Shown here: positions 5,244-11,134 of the stretch, piece after piece
Layout of the letters: every line of letters starts with the position of its first letter
Numbering within the stretch: the stretch's first letter is position 1
From: Nitrospirota bacterium
Lineage (GTDB): Bacteria; Nitrospirota; Nitrospiria; 2-01-FULL-66-17
Reading direction: 5' to 3'
Length of the DNA stretch: 47,755 nucleotides
Assembly: GCA_040757335.1 (NCBI GenBank)
Contig: JBFLXB010000030.1
Coordinates: 1-47,755, forward strand
Program-made: the position numbers and the translations under genes
The notes under the pieces: generated by a model
Told to the model about the DNA's origin: nothing
Seen by the model: the letters and a program-made list of their open reading frames with translations, nothing else
Database searches by the model: none

Positions 5244-6227
5244 TCAGGACTTCTTCGGTCTGTCCCGTTCCAGGGTTTCGATCACCCCCGCCGCCAATAA
5301 CGGAAACATAATCTCGTGGTGTCCCGTCAGCGTGTAGCCTCGACCGCCGGCTTGGGTGGGGCGGCGGACCACGTTGGTGACGGGGCGGTAGTGTTGGGTG
5401 AAGTCCATGTTCACGGTGGTGAAGTTGACGACGCGATGGCCCAAGTTGCGGGCAATGGTCACGGCTTTGAGGAACACCTCCGGAAGCAGAACCGCTGATC
5501 CCAAGTTGAGATACACGCCGCCTTCGAGGTGAGCGACCACGGCGGTCAGGCGCTTGAAGTCTTCCAGCGACGTCGCGCCGATTGCGGCGCCGTCGGCCGA
5601 GGGGTGCATGTGGATGATGTCGGTGCCGATCGCCACGTGCACCGTCGCTGGGATGCCCAGGCGGCTGCAGGTGGCCAGCAGACTCATGTTCTTGTACGGA
5701 AACTTGCCGCGCAGGATCGCATCGCCCACGGCCTGACCCATGCCGAGGCCGCGCTTCGCGCCGGCGCTGATCGCGGCGTTGAGCAACTCCGCGGTGTCGC
5801 GGGCCATGCCGAAGCTGCCGTCGTCGATCCCGGCCTCCACTTCCTCGGATGTCTTGCCTACCAACGCCAGCTCCAGGTCGTGGATGATCCCGGCGCCGTT
5901 CATGGCGAGGCATGAGACCACGCCGCGTTTCATCAAATCGATCAGAATCGGATTCAGCCCGACCTTGATGGGGTGGGCGCCCATGCCCACGATCACGGGG
6001 CGGCGGGTGCGGGTGGCACGCGCGATGTCGGCGATCACGGCCTTGAGCGTGCGGGCCGCGAGGATATCGGGCAGGGTGTCGAGGAAGCTCGCGAGGCTTT
6101 GGCCCTTGCGGTGGGGCCGGCCGATGTCTTCGACGCGGACTTTGCTGGGGCGCGATTGCGTGGAATAGGTTTTGACCCTCGAGAAGTCGAGGGGCGGGAA
6201 CCGTGGACTGCGGCGGCGGGGCTTCAA
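5244..6227 (-). CDS. Deoxyhypusine-synthase-like protein lacking the catalytic lysine motif
   Basis: A 327-residue protein of the deoxyhypusine synthase fold. The N-terminal half has MGAHPIKVGLNPILIDLM, followed by a HMHPSADGAAIG segment and a GGVYLNLGSAVLLPEVF segment, matching NAD-binding and core strands of the family. True synthases modify eIF5A through a lysine in a C-terminal SGA...EA.SWGK motif. Here the equivalent end reads GYTLTGHHEIMFPLLAAGV and has no such motif. Bacteria lack eIF5A, so the substrate is unknown; a polyamine or small-molecule reaction is possible. The start is TTG at 6227, 52 bases after gmhA, so it is probably cotranscribed with gmhA. The start choice is moderately sure. 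Confidence 0.75.
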   Translation of the reverse strand: MKPRRRSPRFPPLDFSRVKTYSTQSRPSKVRVEDIGRPHRKGQSLASFLDTLPDILAARTLKAVIADIARATRTRRPVIVGMGAHPIKVGLNPILIDLMKRGVVSCLAMNGAGIIHDLELALVGKTSEEVEAGIDDGSFGMARDTAELLNAAISAGAKRGLGMGQAVGDAILRGKFPYKNMSLLATCSRLGIPATVHVAIGTDIIHMHPSADGAAIGATSLEDFKRLTAVVAHLEGGVYLNLGSAVLLPEVFLKAVTIARNLGHRVVNFTTVNMDFTQHYRPVTNVVRRPTQAGGRGYTLTGHHEIMFPLLAAGVIETLERDRPKKS

Positions 6228-6279: not shown

Positions 6280-6861
6280 TCACCGGCCCGGTGGGAACAG
6301 GGCGTCTTCCACCAGCTCGCACAACACGTGTGCCAGCGTGATGTGCGTTTCTTGAATGCGCGGGGTGCTGTTGGACGGCACGATGAAGGCGTGATCGACC
6401 AGGGACGCGAGCTTTCCCCCGTCCTTGCCCGTGAAGGCGATCGTCACCATCCCCAGGGGCTTTGCCGCGTCGACGCCGCGCAACACGTTGGGCGAATTGC
6501 CGCTGGTGCTCAACGCGATCGCCACGTCGCCTTTGCGCCCGAATGCCCGCACCTGCCGGGAGAAGAGGTCCTGAAAGTCGTAGTCGTTGCTGATGCTGGT
6601 CACGACCGAGGGGTCGGACGCCAACGCGATGGCCGGCAGCCCGTCGCGGTCGCGGTTGAAGCGGTTGACCAACTCGCCGGCGATGTGGGAGGCGTCGGTC
6701 GCGCTGCCCCCGTTGCCGAACAGCAGCACCTTGTGGTCTTTCTTGTACGCCGTCACGATTTTTTTGGCTACGTCGGCGATCTGGTTCTCGTATTGCGCCA
6801 GGAACGCCTCTTTGACCGAGATGCTGTCTTTGAACGAGCGGCGGATTTGATCGATCATCAC
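6280..6861 (-). CDS. gmhA: Sedoheptulose-7-phosphate isomerase GmhA
   Basis: A 193-residue SIS-domain enzyme making D-glycero-D-manno-heptose 7-phosphate, the first step of LPS heptose synthesis. Visible family motifs are LLFGNGGSATDASHIAGEL (substrate-binding loop), DPSVVTSISNDYDF, ALSTSGNSPNVL (SIS core) and IQETHITLAHVLCE near the C-terminus, which carries catalytic Glu and His. The start is ATG 6861; a second in-frame ATG follows at 6858. It is the first gene of the minus-strand run and has its own strong promoter. rfaE2 downstream catalyses a later step in the same pathway. Confidence 0.95.
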   Translation of the reverse strand: MMIDQIRRSFKDSISVKEAFLAQYENQIADVAKKIVTAYKKDHKVLLFGNGGSATDASHIAGELVNRFNRDRDGLPAIALASDPSVVTSISNDYDFQDLFSRQVRAFGRKGDVAIALSTSGNSPNVLRGVDAAKPLGMVTIAFTGKDGGKLASLVDHAFIVPSNSTPRIQETHITLAHVLCELVEDALFPPGR

Positions 6862-6900
6862 GAGTGGACGGTCGGTTCCGAGCGGTTGAGACCCGGCGAC

Positions 6901-6929
6901 ATCTTAAGCACGGTGCTCAAGGTTGTCAA
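6901..6929 (-). promoter_or_regulatory. gmhA promoter with an embedded palindrome
   Basis: On the minus strand, TTGACA (6929-6924), a 17-bp spacer and TAAGAT (6906-6901), giving a predicted start near 6894 and a 33-nt leader. The spacer and half of the -10 box are covered by a 9-1-9 palindrome at 6903-6921 (CTTAAGCAC-G-GTGCTCAAG, one mismatch). Such placement is typical of a repressor operator. Confidence 0.6.
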
Positions 6930-6993
6930 GGTGAGGTCGGGGGGGTATCATCTGCTACGCGTCGTGCGCAGGGATCGCGCGCGGCGCACTTAA

Positions 6994-7170
6994 CCCGGAT
7001 TATTCATGAATCTTTCTGCTGCAACCGCGGATCCGCCGCTGCACCGGGCGGTCTCGCCGCTCAGTCGGTCAACGGACTGCAGGGAGTACGCCTCCCTCCT
7101 TCGCGGCTCCGAGCGCCCGGCTCGCTGGCGTTTGCGCGGTTTCGCGACGAACGCTCATGAATAATCCGGG
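6994..7170. mobile_element. Miniature inverted-repeat element (177 bp)
   Basis: A perfect 16-bp terminal inverted repeat, CCCGGATTATTCATGA at 6994-7009 and its reverse complement at 7155-7170, bounds a GC-rich core with no coding capacity. It lies in the 312-bp gap between the divergent gmhA and HEAT-repeat genes. The right end stops 3 bases before the ATG of the HEAT gene. No transposase is nearby, so any movement would need one encoded elsewhere. The remainder of the gap holds the gmhA promoter. Confidence 0.7.
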
Positions 7171-7173
7171 ATA

Positions 7174-8583
7174 ATGGTCCAATTGAGCGATCCTTACACG
7201 TGGTGGTCGGCGGCGATCTGGGCGCCGGCTGCGTCGGCCGCGCTCGCGGCCGCGGGCGCGGGCTATGCGTTGACGCGGCGGTTGGTGCGCCGCGCCGCGC
7301 TGCAGCGACGCGACGCCAGGCGCGCCGGGTATCGCGCGATCGTTGACGACCTGTCGGACGCGAGACTGGGCGTCCCCACCGCCCCCGCCGAGTTGCCCGC
7401 GGCGGTTCTGACCGACCACGTGTTCCTGGCCTGCCTGGCCGAAGCCTTCGACTGCGCGTCTCCCGAGCTCCGCGCGCGGCTCATCGGGCACTGCGGACGA
7501 TTCGGTTACGGCGAACGGTTTCGCGCGTTGACCTGCAGTCCCTGGGCGTGGCGCCGCATGGACGCGGCGCGGTGGCTGGGGCGCCTGGGACAGCGCGATG
7601 GTCTCCCGCATCTGATCCGGCTCACGGGTGATCGGTCGGCCCGCGTGCGATCGGCGGCCGTCGGCGCCCTGGGGGCCTTGCGCGATCCCGAGGCGTGCGA
7701 CGCGCTCGTGAGGTGCCTGGACGAGATCGCGTCGGCGTTCGATCGTCGCGCGGTGCCGCCCGATGTGTTGACGCGCGCGCTCGTGGGCCAGGGTGCCGAA
7801 GCGGTGCCCGCGCTGTTGCCGCGCATGCAGAGCCGGTCGGGTGTGGTCAGGAAGATCGCGGTCGAGGTCTTGGCGTGCGCGCCCGAGTCCGATCCTCGCG
7901 TCCGAGGCGCCCTGTTGTCCGCGTTGGAAGACCGCGACGCGGAGGTGCGCGCCGCCGCCGCGAAAGCGATCGGGCACGTCAACGACACCAGTGCGGTGGC
8001 GCTGTTGGCCAAGTCCCTGTCGGATCCGGTCTGGTTCGTTCGTCTCCAGGCCGCTCGGGCGCTCGGGACGCTGGCGCTCCAGCGCGCGCTCCGCCCGCTG
8101 GTGTCGGCGTTGACCGATGAGTCGTGGCAGGTCCGCGCGGCTGCGGCGGACGCGTTGCGTCGGCTGGGAGAACCGGCCGTGCCCGCGCTGACCGAGTGTC
8201 TGTTCACCAGCCGCGACCGCTACGTCAAAGAACAGGTGGTCGAAGAGCTCCAGCGCACGCCGTTTCTCCACGAGCAAGTCGAAGCGCTCGACAGCCAGGT
8301 TCCCGGGGCGGTGTTTGCGGCGCAGCGCTTTCTGCGCGCAGTGGCGCGGCACGGCGCGATCACGGTGTTGCTCGACGCGCTGCGCACCCACCGGCGCGTC
8401 ACCGTACGCCGGAGGCTCGCTCTGGCGTTGGGCACGGTGGACGTGCCGCGGGTCATCGCGGTCCTGCACGACCTGGCCGAACACGATCGGGATGCGGGCG
8501 TTCGTGAGGCGGCACGGCGCGCCCTGACGGGCCGCTCGGACCTCGCGGCCGGCGGACCGACCGCGAGGGAGCAAGCCGCGTGA
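7174..8583 (+). CDS. HEAT-repeat membrane-anchored protein
   Basis: A 469-residue protein. Residues about 9-32 form one hydrophobic segment, followed by a basic patch (TRRLVRRAALQRR), so it is likely anchored with a cytoplasmic C-terminal body. From about residue 125 onward there are repeated two-helix units of the HEAT/PBS-lyase type, for example VRSAAVGALGALRDPEA, VRAAAAKAIGHVNDTSA and VRAAAADALRRLGEPAV. Such solenoids bind proteins. The ATG lies 3 bases after the inverted-repeat element, and no clear Shine-Dalgarno site is visible. The next gene starts on its stop codon (GTGA). HEAT proteins paired with GT2 glycosyltransferases recur in several phyla, so a scaffold role for its partner is a reasonable inference. 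Confidence 0.82.
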   Translation: MVQLSDPYTWWSAAIWAPAASAALAAAGAGYALTRRLVRRAALQRRDARRAGYRAIVDDLSDARLGVPTAPAELPAAVLTDHVFLACLAEAFDCASPELRARLIGHCGRFGYGERFRALTCSPWAWRRMDAARWLGRLGQRDGLPHLIRLTGDRSARVRSAAVGALGALRDPEACDALVRCLDEIASAFDRRAVPPDVLTRALVGQGAEAVPALLPRMQSRSGVVRKIAVEVLACAPESDPRVRGALLSALEDRDAEVRAAAAKAIGHVNDTSAVALLAKSLSDPVWFVRLQAARALGTLALQRALRPLVSALTDESWQVRAAAADALRRLGEPAVPALTECLFTSRDRYVKEQVVEELQRTPFLHEQVEALDSQVPGAVFAAQRFLRAVARHGAITVLLDALRTHRRVTVRRRLALALGTVDVPRVIAVLHDLAEHDRDAGVREAARRALTGRSDLAAGGPTAREQAA

Positions 8584-9965
8584 TCGATTCGGTGCTCTCG
8601 CCCATCGCGTACGCGTTGGCATGGTATGCCGTGGCGGCGGCGATCGGCGGGCTGGCGCTCACCGCGTCGGCCGCGTGGCTGGTGTTTCGCCATCGCCGCG
8701 AGTATGAGTTGAGCCCGGACGCCGGCCCGCCGGACGGACGCACGATGCCCCCGGTGTCCGTGGTGCTGGCGACGTCGGACGACGACGCGTTGATCGGCGA
8801 GCGGTTGGACGCGCTCGGCGCGCTCGACTACCCCGCGTTCGAGGTGGTGGTGGTATCCAACGGGCCCATCAGCCCGCAACTGGCCCGCGTGATGAGCCGT
8901 TTACAGACCAAACCGGTCGATCTGATCTACCGTCCCCTGATCAAAACCGGACGCGTCACCGCGTGTTACCACAGCGCCGCCCCGCTCAACCTGACGGTGT
9001 TGGAAAAGGAGCGAGGAACCGCGGCCGACGCGTTCAACGCCGGGTTGAACGCGTCGCGGAGTCCCTATGTGTGCCTGGTCGAACTCGGCGCGTGGCTGGA
9101 TCGCGCGGCGCTCACGCGGCTCATGGCTCCGGTCATGGACGACCCCGAGCGGGTCGTGCTCACGGCGGGCATTGAGCGCGTGATGAACGGGTGCGAGTTC
9201 CGTGACGGCGATGTCGTGGTGGCCGCGTGCCCGGGTCGGCCCGCGGTCGCGTGGCAGGTCCTCGACGGACTCCGACGCGCCATGCTGGCGATCGGGGCGG
9301 GGCCTTTGCTCGGCGCGGGCGTCGCGCCCCGATCGTGCGTGTTGGTCCAGAAACGGGAAATGCTCCGCGTGGAAGGGGTTCCGCCGAACGGGGGCGCGAG
9401 AGATCTCGCTGCGCTGGCCTGGAGCCGGCCCGGCCTGCGCTCGGCTATCGTGTCCCTGCCCGTGGCGTGGGCGCCAGTCCCGCTCACGCTCGCCGGTGTC
9501 GCCGAGCGGCATCGGGCCGACGCGGCCGCGGCGCTGGACGCGCTCCGGGGACTGTGGAGGCCCTGCGGCCGCATCACGCACACGGGCCCGGCCTGGCGCT
9601 TGATCCCACTCGCGCGCGGGGTGCGCACGGTCACGCCGGTGCTCGATGTGGCTGCCCTGGCGGTTGCGACCGCGGGGCTCGGCGGAGGCCTGGTGGATTT
9701 TTCGTGGCTGCTCGCGGTGTGGTTCAGCGTGCTGGTGGGCCGCACCGCCGTGTCGTCGGCCGCCATCCTGCTCCACGATCTGACGCCCAAACGGTATCCC
9801 ACGCCCTGGGACGTGTGCCGGCTGTTCCTTGCCGCGTTGCTCGATCCCGTCCTGGGGCGGCTGCTGACCGCGTGGTGGACCCTCACCGCGGTGTGGCGCC
9901 GGGTCCCAACGCCGCCGGCACCGAGCCCGGAGCCGCAGGCTGCACCAGTCGGACTACAGAGCTAG
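8580..9965 (+). CDS. GT2-like membrane glycosyltransferase with degenerate active site
   Basis: A 461-residue protein, GTG start, overlapping the HEAT gene by 4 bases. An N-terminal membrane segment (about 9-35) precedes a GT-A domain: PVSVVLA at 57-63, then LIGERLDALGALDYPAFEVVVVSNG. C-terminal hydrophobic segments lie at about 353-400 and 410-440. In processive GT2 enzymes the stretch after NAGLNASR carries a DxD, and a later GED supplies the base. Here these read VELGAW (residues 167-172) and GGARD (261-265), and the usual GGKAD is ERGTAAD. The catalytic set therefore appears lost. It may be a pseudoenzyme working with the HEAT protein, or a divergent transferase. It overlaps the convergent MFS gene by 4 bases. 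Confidence 0.72.
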   Translation: MIDSVLSPIAYALAWYAVAAAIGGLALTASAAWLVFRHRREYELSPDAGPPDGRTMPPVSVVLATSDDDALIGERLDALGALDYPAFEVVVVSNGPISPQLARVMSRLQTKPVDLIYRPLIKTGRVTACYHSAAPLNLTVLEKERGTAADAFNAGLNASRSPYVCLVELGAWLDRAALTRLMAPVMDDPERVVLTAGIERVMNGCEFRDGDVVVAACPGRPAVAWQVLDGLRRAMLAIGAGPLLGAGVAPRSCVLVQKREMLRVEGVPPNGGARDLAALAWSRPGLRSAIVSLPVAWAPVPLTLAGVAERHRADAAAALDALRGLWRPCGRITHTGPAWRLIPLARGVRTVTPVLDVAALAVATAGLGGGLVDFSWLLAVWFSVLVGRTAVSSAAILLHDLTPKRYPTPWDVCRLFLAALLDPVLGRLLTAWWTLTAVWRRVPTPPAPSPEPQAAPVGLQS

Positions 9966-11134
9966 CGCGGTTCCAGTCGCACCGCGCGCAGAAATCCGAC
10001 GGCGAAGACCAGACCGCCGAACGCGGCGAGCGCGCTGAGGCCGAACAACGGCGCGGCACCCCACGCGGCATAGAGCGCGCCGTTGAGCAACGAGCCGCCG
10101 GCCGACCCGACGCCGTAGGCGAGGCTGCTGTAGAGCGTCTGCCCGGTCGACCGCAGGGACGGCGGCGCGGTCCGGTGCACGAGCGTGACCGCGGCCACGT
10201 GGAACGCGCCGAATGTGAGCGCGTGCAGCCCCTGCGCCAGCACAAGGCCCACCAGCCCGGGCGAACTGCTCATCACCGCCCACCGCGCGACCGCGGCGGC
10301 GAACGCGACCACGAACAAGCCTTCGGCGCCGATCCGTCCCATGGCACGCGCCGACCAAAACATGAAGACCACTTCGACCAGGATGCTGGCGGTCCAGAGC
10401 GCGCCGAGGGACCACGGCGCCCAGCCCCGGCTCTCCAGCCAGATGGAGAAAAATCCGTAGTAGGTGCCGTGGCTGAACTGCATCAGCAGGCATGCGAGGT
10501 AGAACCCGGACAATGCGCGTAATCCACGCACAGCGTGGGTGGAGACCGGAGACGCCAACGCGGGGAGGCGCGTGGTGGGGATCGCACAGGCGGCTGCGGT
10601 GGCCGCCGCGAACCCGCCGAGGATGCCGTACAAGATGACCCGATCGGACGACGCGGTTTTGAGCCAGACGCCCATCAACAGGGTGGCCACGATGAAGCCC
10701 AACGATCCCCAGAGCCGGATACGCCCGTAGTCGAAGCGTTTGAGTCGATCCAGGGTTTCGAGCGTGGTGGCTTCGACCAACGGCAGCACCGGGGCCCACG
10801 CCACCGCGAACACCACCATCACCGCCAAGACGCTCAAAAAGGTGGTCGAGACCAGAAACGCGGCGAACGAGAGCGTGGTGGCGGCGGACGTGGCGATGAT
10901 CAGCAGCCGCCCGTGTCCCGTGCGATCGGCCACGAGCCCGAAGGCCGCGGGGACAAGAATTTTGAAGAGGGGCGGCATGGCCGCGACCACGCCGATCTGC
11001 CAAGGGGTGAACCCCAGGTGCAGGAGGTACAGATTGAAGTAGGGGAGGTAGACGCCGAGGGCCGCGAACGATCCGAAGTAAACGGCGATCAGCGCAAGCG
11101 CGGCCCGCACCGTATGGGCTAGGAGCCTGTCCAT
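9962..11134 (-). CDS. Major facilitator superfamily transporter (MFS_1-like)
   Basis: A 390-residue integral membrane protein with about 12 hydrophobic segments. The N-terminal half has FNLYLLHLGFTPWQIG and FGLVADRTGHGR, the loop 2-3 signature of the HcaT/3-phenylpropionate-type MFS group. The substrate cannot be told from sequence. The ATG at 11134 and the first five codons lie inside a repeat (11122-11308). A GTG at 11110 (residue 9), just outside the repeat, is the likely ancestral alternative. No ribosome site is visible for either. The 3' end overlaps the convergent GT2-like gene. Confidence 0.85.
   Translation of the reverse strand: MDRLLAHTVRAALALIAVYFGSFAALGVYLPYFNLYLLHLGFTPWQIGVVAAMPPLFKILVPAAFGLVADRTGHGRLLIIATSAATTLSFAAFLVSTTFLSVLAVMVVFAVAWAPVLPLVEATTLETLDRLKRFDYGRIRLWGSLGFIVATLLMGVWLKTASSDRVILYGILGGFAAATAAACAIPTTRLPALASPVSTHAVRGLRALSGFYLACLLMQFSHGTYYGFFSIWLESRGWAPWSLGALWTASILVEVVFMFWSARAMGRIGAEGLFVVAFAAAVARWAVMSSSPGLVGLVLAQGLHALTFGAFHVAAVTLVHRTAPPSLRSTGQTLYSSLAYGVGSAGGSLLNGALYAAWGAAPLFGLSALAAFGGLVFAVGFLRAVRLEPR

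Follow-up and report, generated by a model that had tools for sequence, protein, structure and literature searches.

How does a membrane glycosyltransferase that has lost the residues for catalysis come to be kept in a bacterial genome, and what does the protein encoded next to it do? The question is raised by a stretch of 47,755 nucleotides, hereafter the window (contig JBFLXB010000030.1, assembly GCA_040757335.1), from a Nitrospirota genome that belongs to a group of little-known groundwater bacteria and is available as a 3.56-Mb draft, 99% complete. On its forward strand the window carries a gene for a HEAT-repeat protein of 469 aa (7174..8583; Pfam HEAT_2, E 1.2e-44), followed by one for a protein of 461 aa (8580..9965) that Pfam, a structure model and alignment together characterize as a pseudo-glycosyltransferase (GT) with a GT2 fold of the PgaC/HAS/BcsA-like kind. 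The two share a GTGA stop/start overlap (8580..8583, forward strand), and we could confirm on the window sequence both the reading frames and the overlap described in an earlier note on this DNA, which took the GT for a maintained pseudoenzyme with a HEAT partner of its own.

Results

Catalytic motifs of the glycosyltransferase

The order to which the window belongs was sampled by three draft genomes from two genera, namely that of the window, G001 and G002, the latter two being 65% and 88% complete in one order or the other. The HEAT-GT pair is present in all three, the GTGA overlap is identical in G001 and G002, and the spacing between the genes is -4 in both the window and G001. As the GT sequence of G001 is cut by a contig end, QxxRW was read in the window and G002 only. 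For comparison, 395 genomes of the phylum were searched by alignment, 73 of which yielded a member of the GT family at E <= 1e-25, and 77 loci were aligned, comprising these 73 genomes, a second fragment from G051, G002 and two Acidobacteriaceae records. Subtracting the three members of the clade, as well as the G175 row and the second G051 copy, which fall short of the DxD motif, leaves 72 intact rows; among these the G152 row reaches DxD and ends before the C-terminal motifs, and the G460 row reads X at QxxRW. The GT relative of G175 (locus L161) is split across two frames, whether by a true frameshift or through a fault of the assembly.

In GT2 synthases the motifs in question serve the donor, the catalytic base and the acceptor, as known from work on BcsA and HAS; a BcsA alignment covers the DAD, ED and QRxRW stretches. 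The landmarks by which the protein had been recognized (LDYPAFEVVVVSNG, AFNAGLNASR and VMNGC) are all found in the window GT, as are the reported substitutions VELGA (residues 167-171), ERGT (144-147) and GGARD (271-275). Alignment with the intact relatives places the DxD motif at codons 168-170 (9081..9089, forward strand, as are the sites that follow), where the window reads E-L-G, G002 GPR and G001 AAG, versus D-x-D in all 72 intact rows covering this column (71 DAD and one DSD). The lysine of GGK, K in the intact relatives, falls at codon 148 (9021..9023) and is replaced in every clade member, by A in the window and by A and V in the others. Two further losses had been missed by the earlier note: QxxRW (codons 310-314, 9507..9521) is replaced in both clade members that reach this stretch (RHRAD in the window, AYRAR in G002), and the SGAF loop is gone from all three.

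The third site named by the earlier note is less clear. The GED position (codons 273-275, 9396..9404) reads A-R-D in the window and AEP and AEY in the sister species, so that only the window has an aspartate aligned there, the sisters having P and Y, and because seven residues are missing right beside it, the site is ambiguous; judging by the alignment, the aspartate may be retained in the window. Thus the proposal that three sites had changed holds clade-wide for DxD and the GGK lysine and remains equivocal for GED. The 77-locus alignment and the structure match described below support a loss of canonical GT2 catalysis in a protein that has kept the fold, and where the motifs for donor and acceptor are concerned the pseudoenzyme claim stands.

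Of the columns at least 90% conserved in the 72 intact rows, 1/19 catalytic versus 27/90 other columns are retained in every clade row (Fisher p 0.023), and counted by cells the figures are 11/53 versus 109/248, that is, conserved non-catalytic cells are retained about twice as often as catalytic ones.

Could the protein nevertheless be a working glycosyltransferase of an unusual kind, whose donor site needs no metal or whose chemistry differs? The GT-A core is kept, D150, K143 and the NAGxN stretch are retained in all three clade members, D275 of the window may be kept as well, and metal-independent enzymes are on record in family GT6 (PMC3961637). However, a new active site should be conserved inside the clade, and when the three sequences were inspected for alternative acidic residues at the donor site, the DxD column proved to hold no conserved replacement, acidic or other. 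Together with the loss of the GGK lysine and of QxxRW wherever these could be read, this makes an active enzyme very improbable.

Fold and membrane segments

Recognition of the GT by sequence is marginal: the Glycos_transf_2 model (PF00535) gives 25.1 bits, which passes the gathering cut-off of 23.3, and a search of PDB sequences with the window GT alone returned no match up to E 1. In the AF2 model the GT-A core (residues about 60-190) reaches a pLDDT of about 80-90, the C-terminal half is weak and the overall mean is 60.6. The model matches the structures of chlorovirus HAS, BcsA, plant CesA and PcManGT (Foldseek E down to 3e-11; VIA Z 15-18, top 17.8). Unlike HAS, BcsA and CesA, the window GT lacks DxD, the GGK lysine and QxxRW, and its identity to them is 9-19% over the aligned stretches. 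Hydrophobic segments are kept at both ends of the protein, at the N-terminus and at about 350-430. In its AF2 model (mean pLDDT 86.0) the HEAT protein starts with a single helix at about 7-62, after which comes the HEAT solenoid; a fold search with this model returned designed alphaRep and PP2A/importin solenoids and was hence uninformative.

The HEAT protein is an ancestral partner

In the tree of the family the three clade members form one branch, which has a support of 1.0 and a stem 1.47 substitutions per site long. Outside the class a HEAT gene lies directly upstream of the GT, on the same strand and overlapping or within 85 bp, in 18/20 loci of the phylum, the other two having none inside the stretch examined. 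The same arrangement occurs in G006, G063 and both Acidobacteriaceae records, and in nine Nitrospiraceae loci with flanks a HEAT gene lies 2.3-6.1 kb from the GT in varying orientation. The repeat W[FY][VI]R[LV] is common to the HEAT protein of the window and to those that accompany intact GTs. These pairs are direct relatives of the window pair, sharing HEAT sequence features and the HEAT-then-GT order, usually overlapping or adjacent, and they differ from it in keeping the catalytic motifs that the clade has lost. The notion of a dedicated HEAT partner had therefore to be abandoned, as the partnership is ancestral: the HEAT protein already accompanied intact GTs of this family before the motifs were lost. 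Searches of open-access papers brought up no description of a partnership between HEAT proteins and PgaC-like synthases of Nitrospirota.

Two observations on the intact family are added here. In one family of the phylum (L145, L146 and L148) the intact GT is paired with a giant HEAT protein of 1173-1321 aa, and the one that was scanned, in L146, showed HEAT repeats only. In G006, a member of the class with intact motifs whose HEAT and GT proteins are among the best matches, the GT measures 358 aa and meets an in-frame TAA near a contig end, so that it may be truncated too.

The best reading of the original system is an exopolysaccharide locus of the PGA-like, synthase-dependent type that included a HEAT subunit. 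It rests on the HEAT gene beside the GT, on the neighbours of the intact members, which include TPR/YaiO porin-like proteins and a polysaccharide deacetylase (PF01522, E 4.3e-25 in L137) resembling pgaA and pgaB, and on the nearest NCBIfam model, PgaC/IcaA (TIGR03937), which is the best match of the window GT (29.8 bits) and of two intact relatives (131 and 148 bits), all three scoring below its equivalog cut-off of 422.3 bits. Like PgaC/IcaA with PgaD, these systems combine a GT-A domain set amid membrane segments with a co-encoded inner-membrane partner, which here is a HEAT solenoid rather than PgaD. PgaC of E. coli depends on its small membrane partner PgaD (PMC8461298); by analogy the HEAT protein may occupy the place of PgaD. 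In several Nitrospirota (L034 2694-3245, L132 404-898 and L142 4581-5063) the HEAT-GT pair is adjoined by a small membrane protein that contains a GPYP stretch, and the L034 copy alone matches a tyrosine phosphatase model (Pfam PF03162).

The window GT departs from this system not only in its catalytic residues. The YaiO domain (TIGR04390) was detected in none of the three genomes of the order (65%, 88% and 99% complete), whereas a Nitrospira locus gives a match to this model at E 2.5e-22. The deacetylase-like protein of Nitrospira proved of little use as a marker of the export locus, since it was found neither in the three genomes of the order nor in G003 and G006, whose GTs are intact.

Constraint on the pair

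If the export machinery was lost, the synthase could have lost its purpose with it, and the pair could persist as an in-frame relic under weak and fading constraint. Such slow decay is the main rival to a maintained role, and on balance we consider it unlikely. The failure to detect a YaiO porin and the 7-residue deletion at the GED site both favour it, and so do the substitution rates. In a rough NG86 estimate on three clade pairs, which are not independent and partly cover different stretches, dN/dS was 0.42-0.48 for the GT and 0.30-0.42 for HEAT, ratios that are likely too high as synonymous sites are close to saturation. Both are raised over the active relatives: in a reference set of 36 pairs from nine Nitrospiraceae genomes (34 GT and 33 HEAT ratios computable; row G041x is locus L041 of genome G055, its HEAT stretch cut at 188 aa) the values were 0.044-0.182 for GT and 0.109-0.309 for HEAT. 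Neighbouring genes of the clade gave 0.15-0.22 (SIS), 0.14 (ferredoxin-like), 0.14 (deoxyhypusine-synthase-like) and 0.35 (MFS). Since the GT ratio lies far above the Nitrospira pairs and near the MFS neighbour, selection on the GT is weak. A broader reference made of all active pairs with pS 0.45-0.60 (117 pairs; dN/dS median 0.048, range 0.022-0.584) was dropped in favour of the Nitrospira pairs, because its five highest values all came from very divergent G278 pairs.

Against mere decay, GT identity within the clade is 48-58%, where neutral evolution simulated at dS 0.93 leaves 20% and at most 25%, and the preferential retention of conserved non-catalytic residues points the same way. The open frame itself was rejected as proof of selection, given that a gene so rich in G+C seldom acquires stop codons; the simulated genes gained a mean of 2.8, and 7.6% of runs ended without any. 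Relatives were also checked for frameshifts, and the sole apparent one, in the HEAT gene of G002, is a run of N and was discarded as a sign of decay. The HEAT and GT genes are thus under constraint, if a looser one than their active relatives, and its weight has shifted from the enzyme to the partner: GT identity exceeds HEAT identity in 36/36 Nitrospira pairs, whereas HEAT identity exceeds GT identity in all three clade pairs (HEAT/GT 54/50, 60/53 and 72/58).

The region upstream of the pair

The region before the HEAT gene bears on the same question from both sides. A promoter-like site for the pair, TTGTCA-17-TATCAT, lies at 6923..6951 on the forward strand, and TTGTCA-17-TATCCT occupies the equivalent place upstream of the pair in G001 and G002. 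A second, divergent site (6901..6929, reverse strand), whose first hexamer overlaps the former, would serve the gene of a SIS-domain (GmhA/DiaA-like) protein (6280..6861, reverse strand), the divergent neighbour in 3/3 genomes of the order, which we mention as context; the two sites compare with 0.2 expected in the region. Beside the SIS gene, positions 5244-6227 encode a deoxyhypusine-synthase-like protein (PF01916, below cut-off) that is 87% identical in G002. An Rfam scan of 6700-10300 gave no match.

Downstream of the promoter-like site, directly before the start codon of HEAT, the window has a MITE-like element of about 180 bp (6994..7173) with inverted ends of 15-16 bp (CCGGATTATTCATGA). 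The element has 11 other matches in its own genome, many of them partial, and its end sequence occurs four times in G001 and once in G002, at other places; the flanks suggest TA target sites. In G001 and G002 the spacer before HEAT is shorter and free of the MITE-like stretch. In the window genome the insertion may have taken the place of the native ribosome-binding site. No other single finding hints at decay as strongly, and as far as the sequences show it is limited to this one genome.

The earlier note had held that the pair is maintained and not decaying. What survives of this claim is that motif loss spread across the order (3/3 genomes, two genera) together with a conserved frame, GTGA overlap and promoter-like site is not what a fresh frameshift wreck looks like; what has to be qualified is the strength of maintenance, as active relatives hold their GT under much stronger constraint and the MITE-like insertion sits directly before the pair. 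Maintenance of the pair is likely.

Discussion

We propose that the ancestor was a two-gene synthase module of the inner membrane, made of an N-terminally anchored HEAT-repeat protein and a processive, PgaC-like GT2, and that it would have been encoded, as in the relatives, alongside a polysaccharide deacetylase and an outer-membrane porin of the TPR/YaiO type. The GT in the order of the window, where no such porin was detected, has lost residues that, by analogy with BcsA and HAS, bind sugar nucleotide and metal and hold the acceptor polymer, and yet it keeps the GT-A fold and membrane segments. It could now be a non-catalytic membrane scaffold that carries the HEAT solenoid, in which case the function retained would reside in the HEAT protein, in binding another protein and perhaps in regulating another synthase of an envelope polymer. 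That the dead synthase is kept as such a scaffold we hold in even balance. The fuller account, by which an order-wide pseudo-glycosyltransferase arose from a biofilm-polymer synthase as the export machinery was lost and the former accessory HEAT protein became the functional subunit, is put forward tentatively, with somewhat less than even confidence. A physical complex of the two proteins, its role and its target are all presumed in these proposals.

The dead GT might instead act directly, as a regulatory subunit of or decoy for other GT2 enzymes of its genome, which are intact and cellulose-synthase-like. That genome does hold 15 matches to PF13641 at E <= 0.001, including BcsA-like proteins of large size, and in L096, one of these, DTD, ED and QRQRW are intact; but a genomic link between these loci and the pair is absent, and we find a direct role of this kind rather improbable.

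For the scaffold reading there is a parallel in BcsE and PelD (PMC8461298), which carry degenerate GGDEF domains in polysaccharide systems. As proposed for the window GT, the fold of a former enzyme is kept there for binding in an envelope-polymer system, although the folds are unrelated.

As the clade separates the HEAT partnership from catalysis, it is unlikely that the HEAT protein helps the dead GT of this clade in polymer synthesis. The clade thereby makes both the role of the HEAT subunit and the use of a dead GT2 testable and, if our proposal is true, it would offer a test, set up by nature, of the part that the HEAT protein plays where the system is intact.
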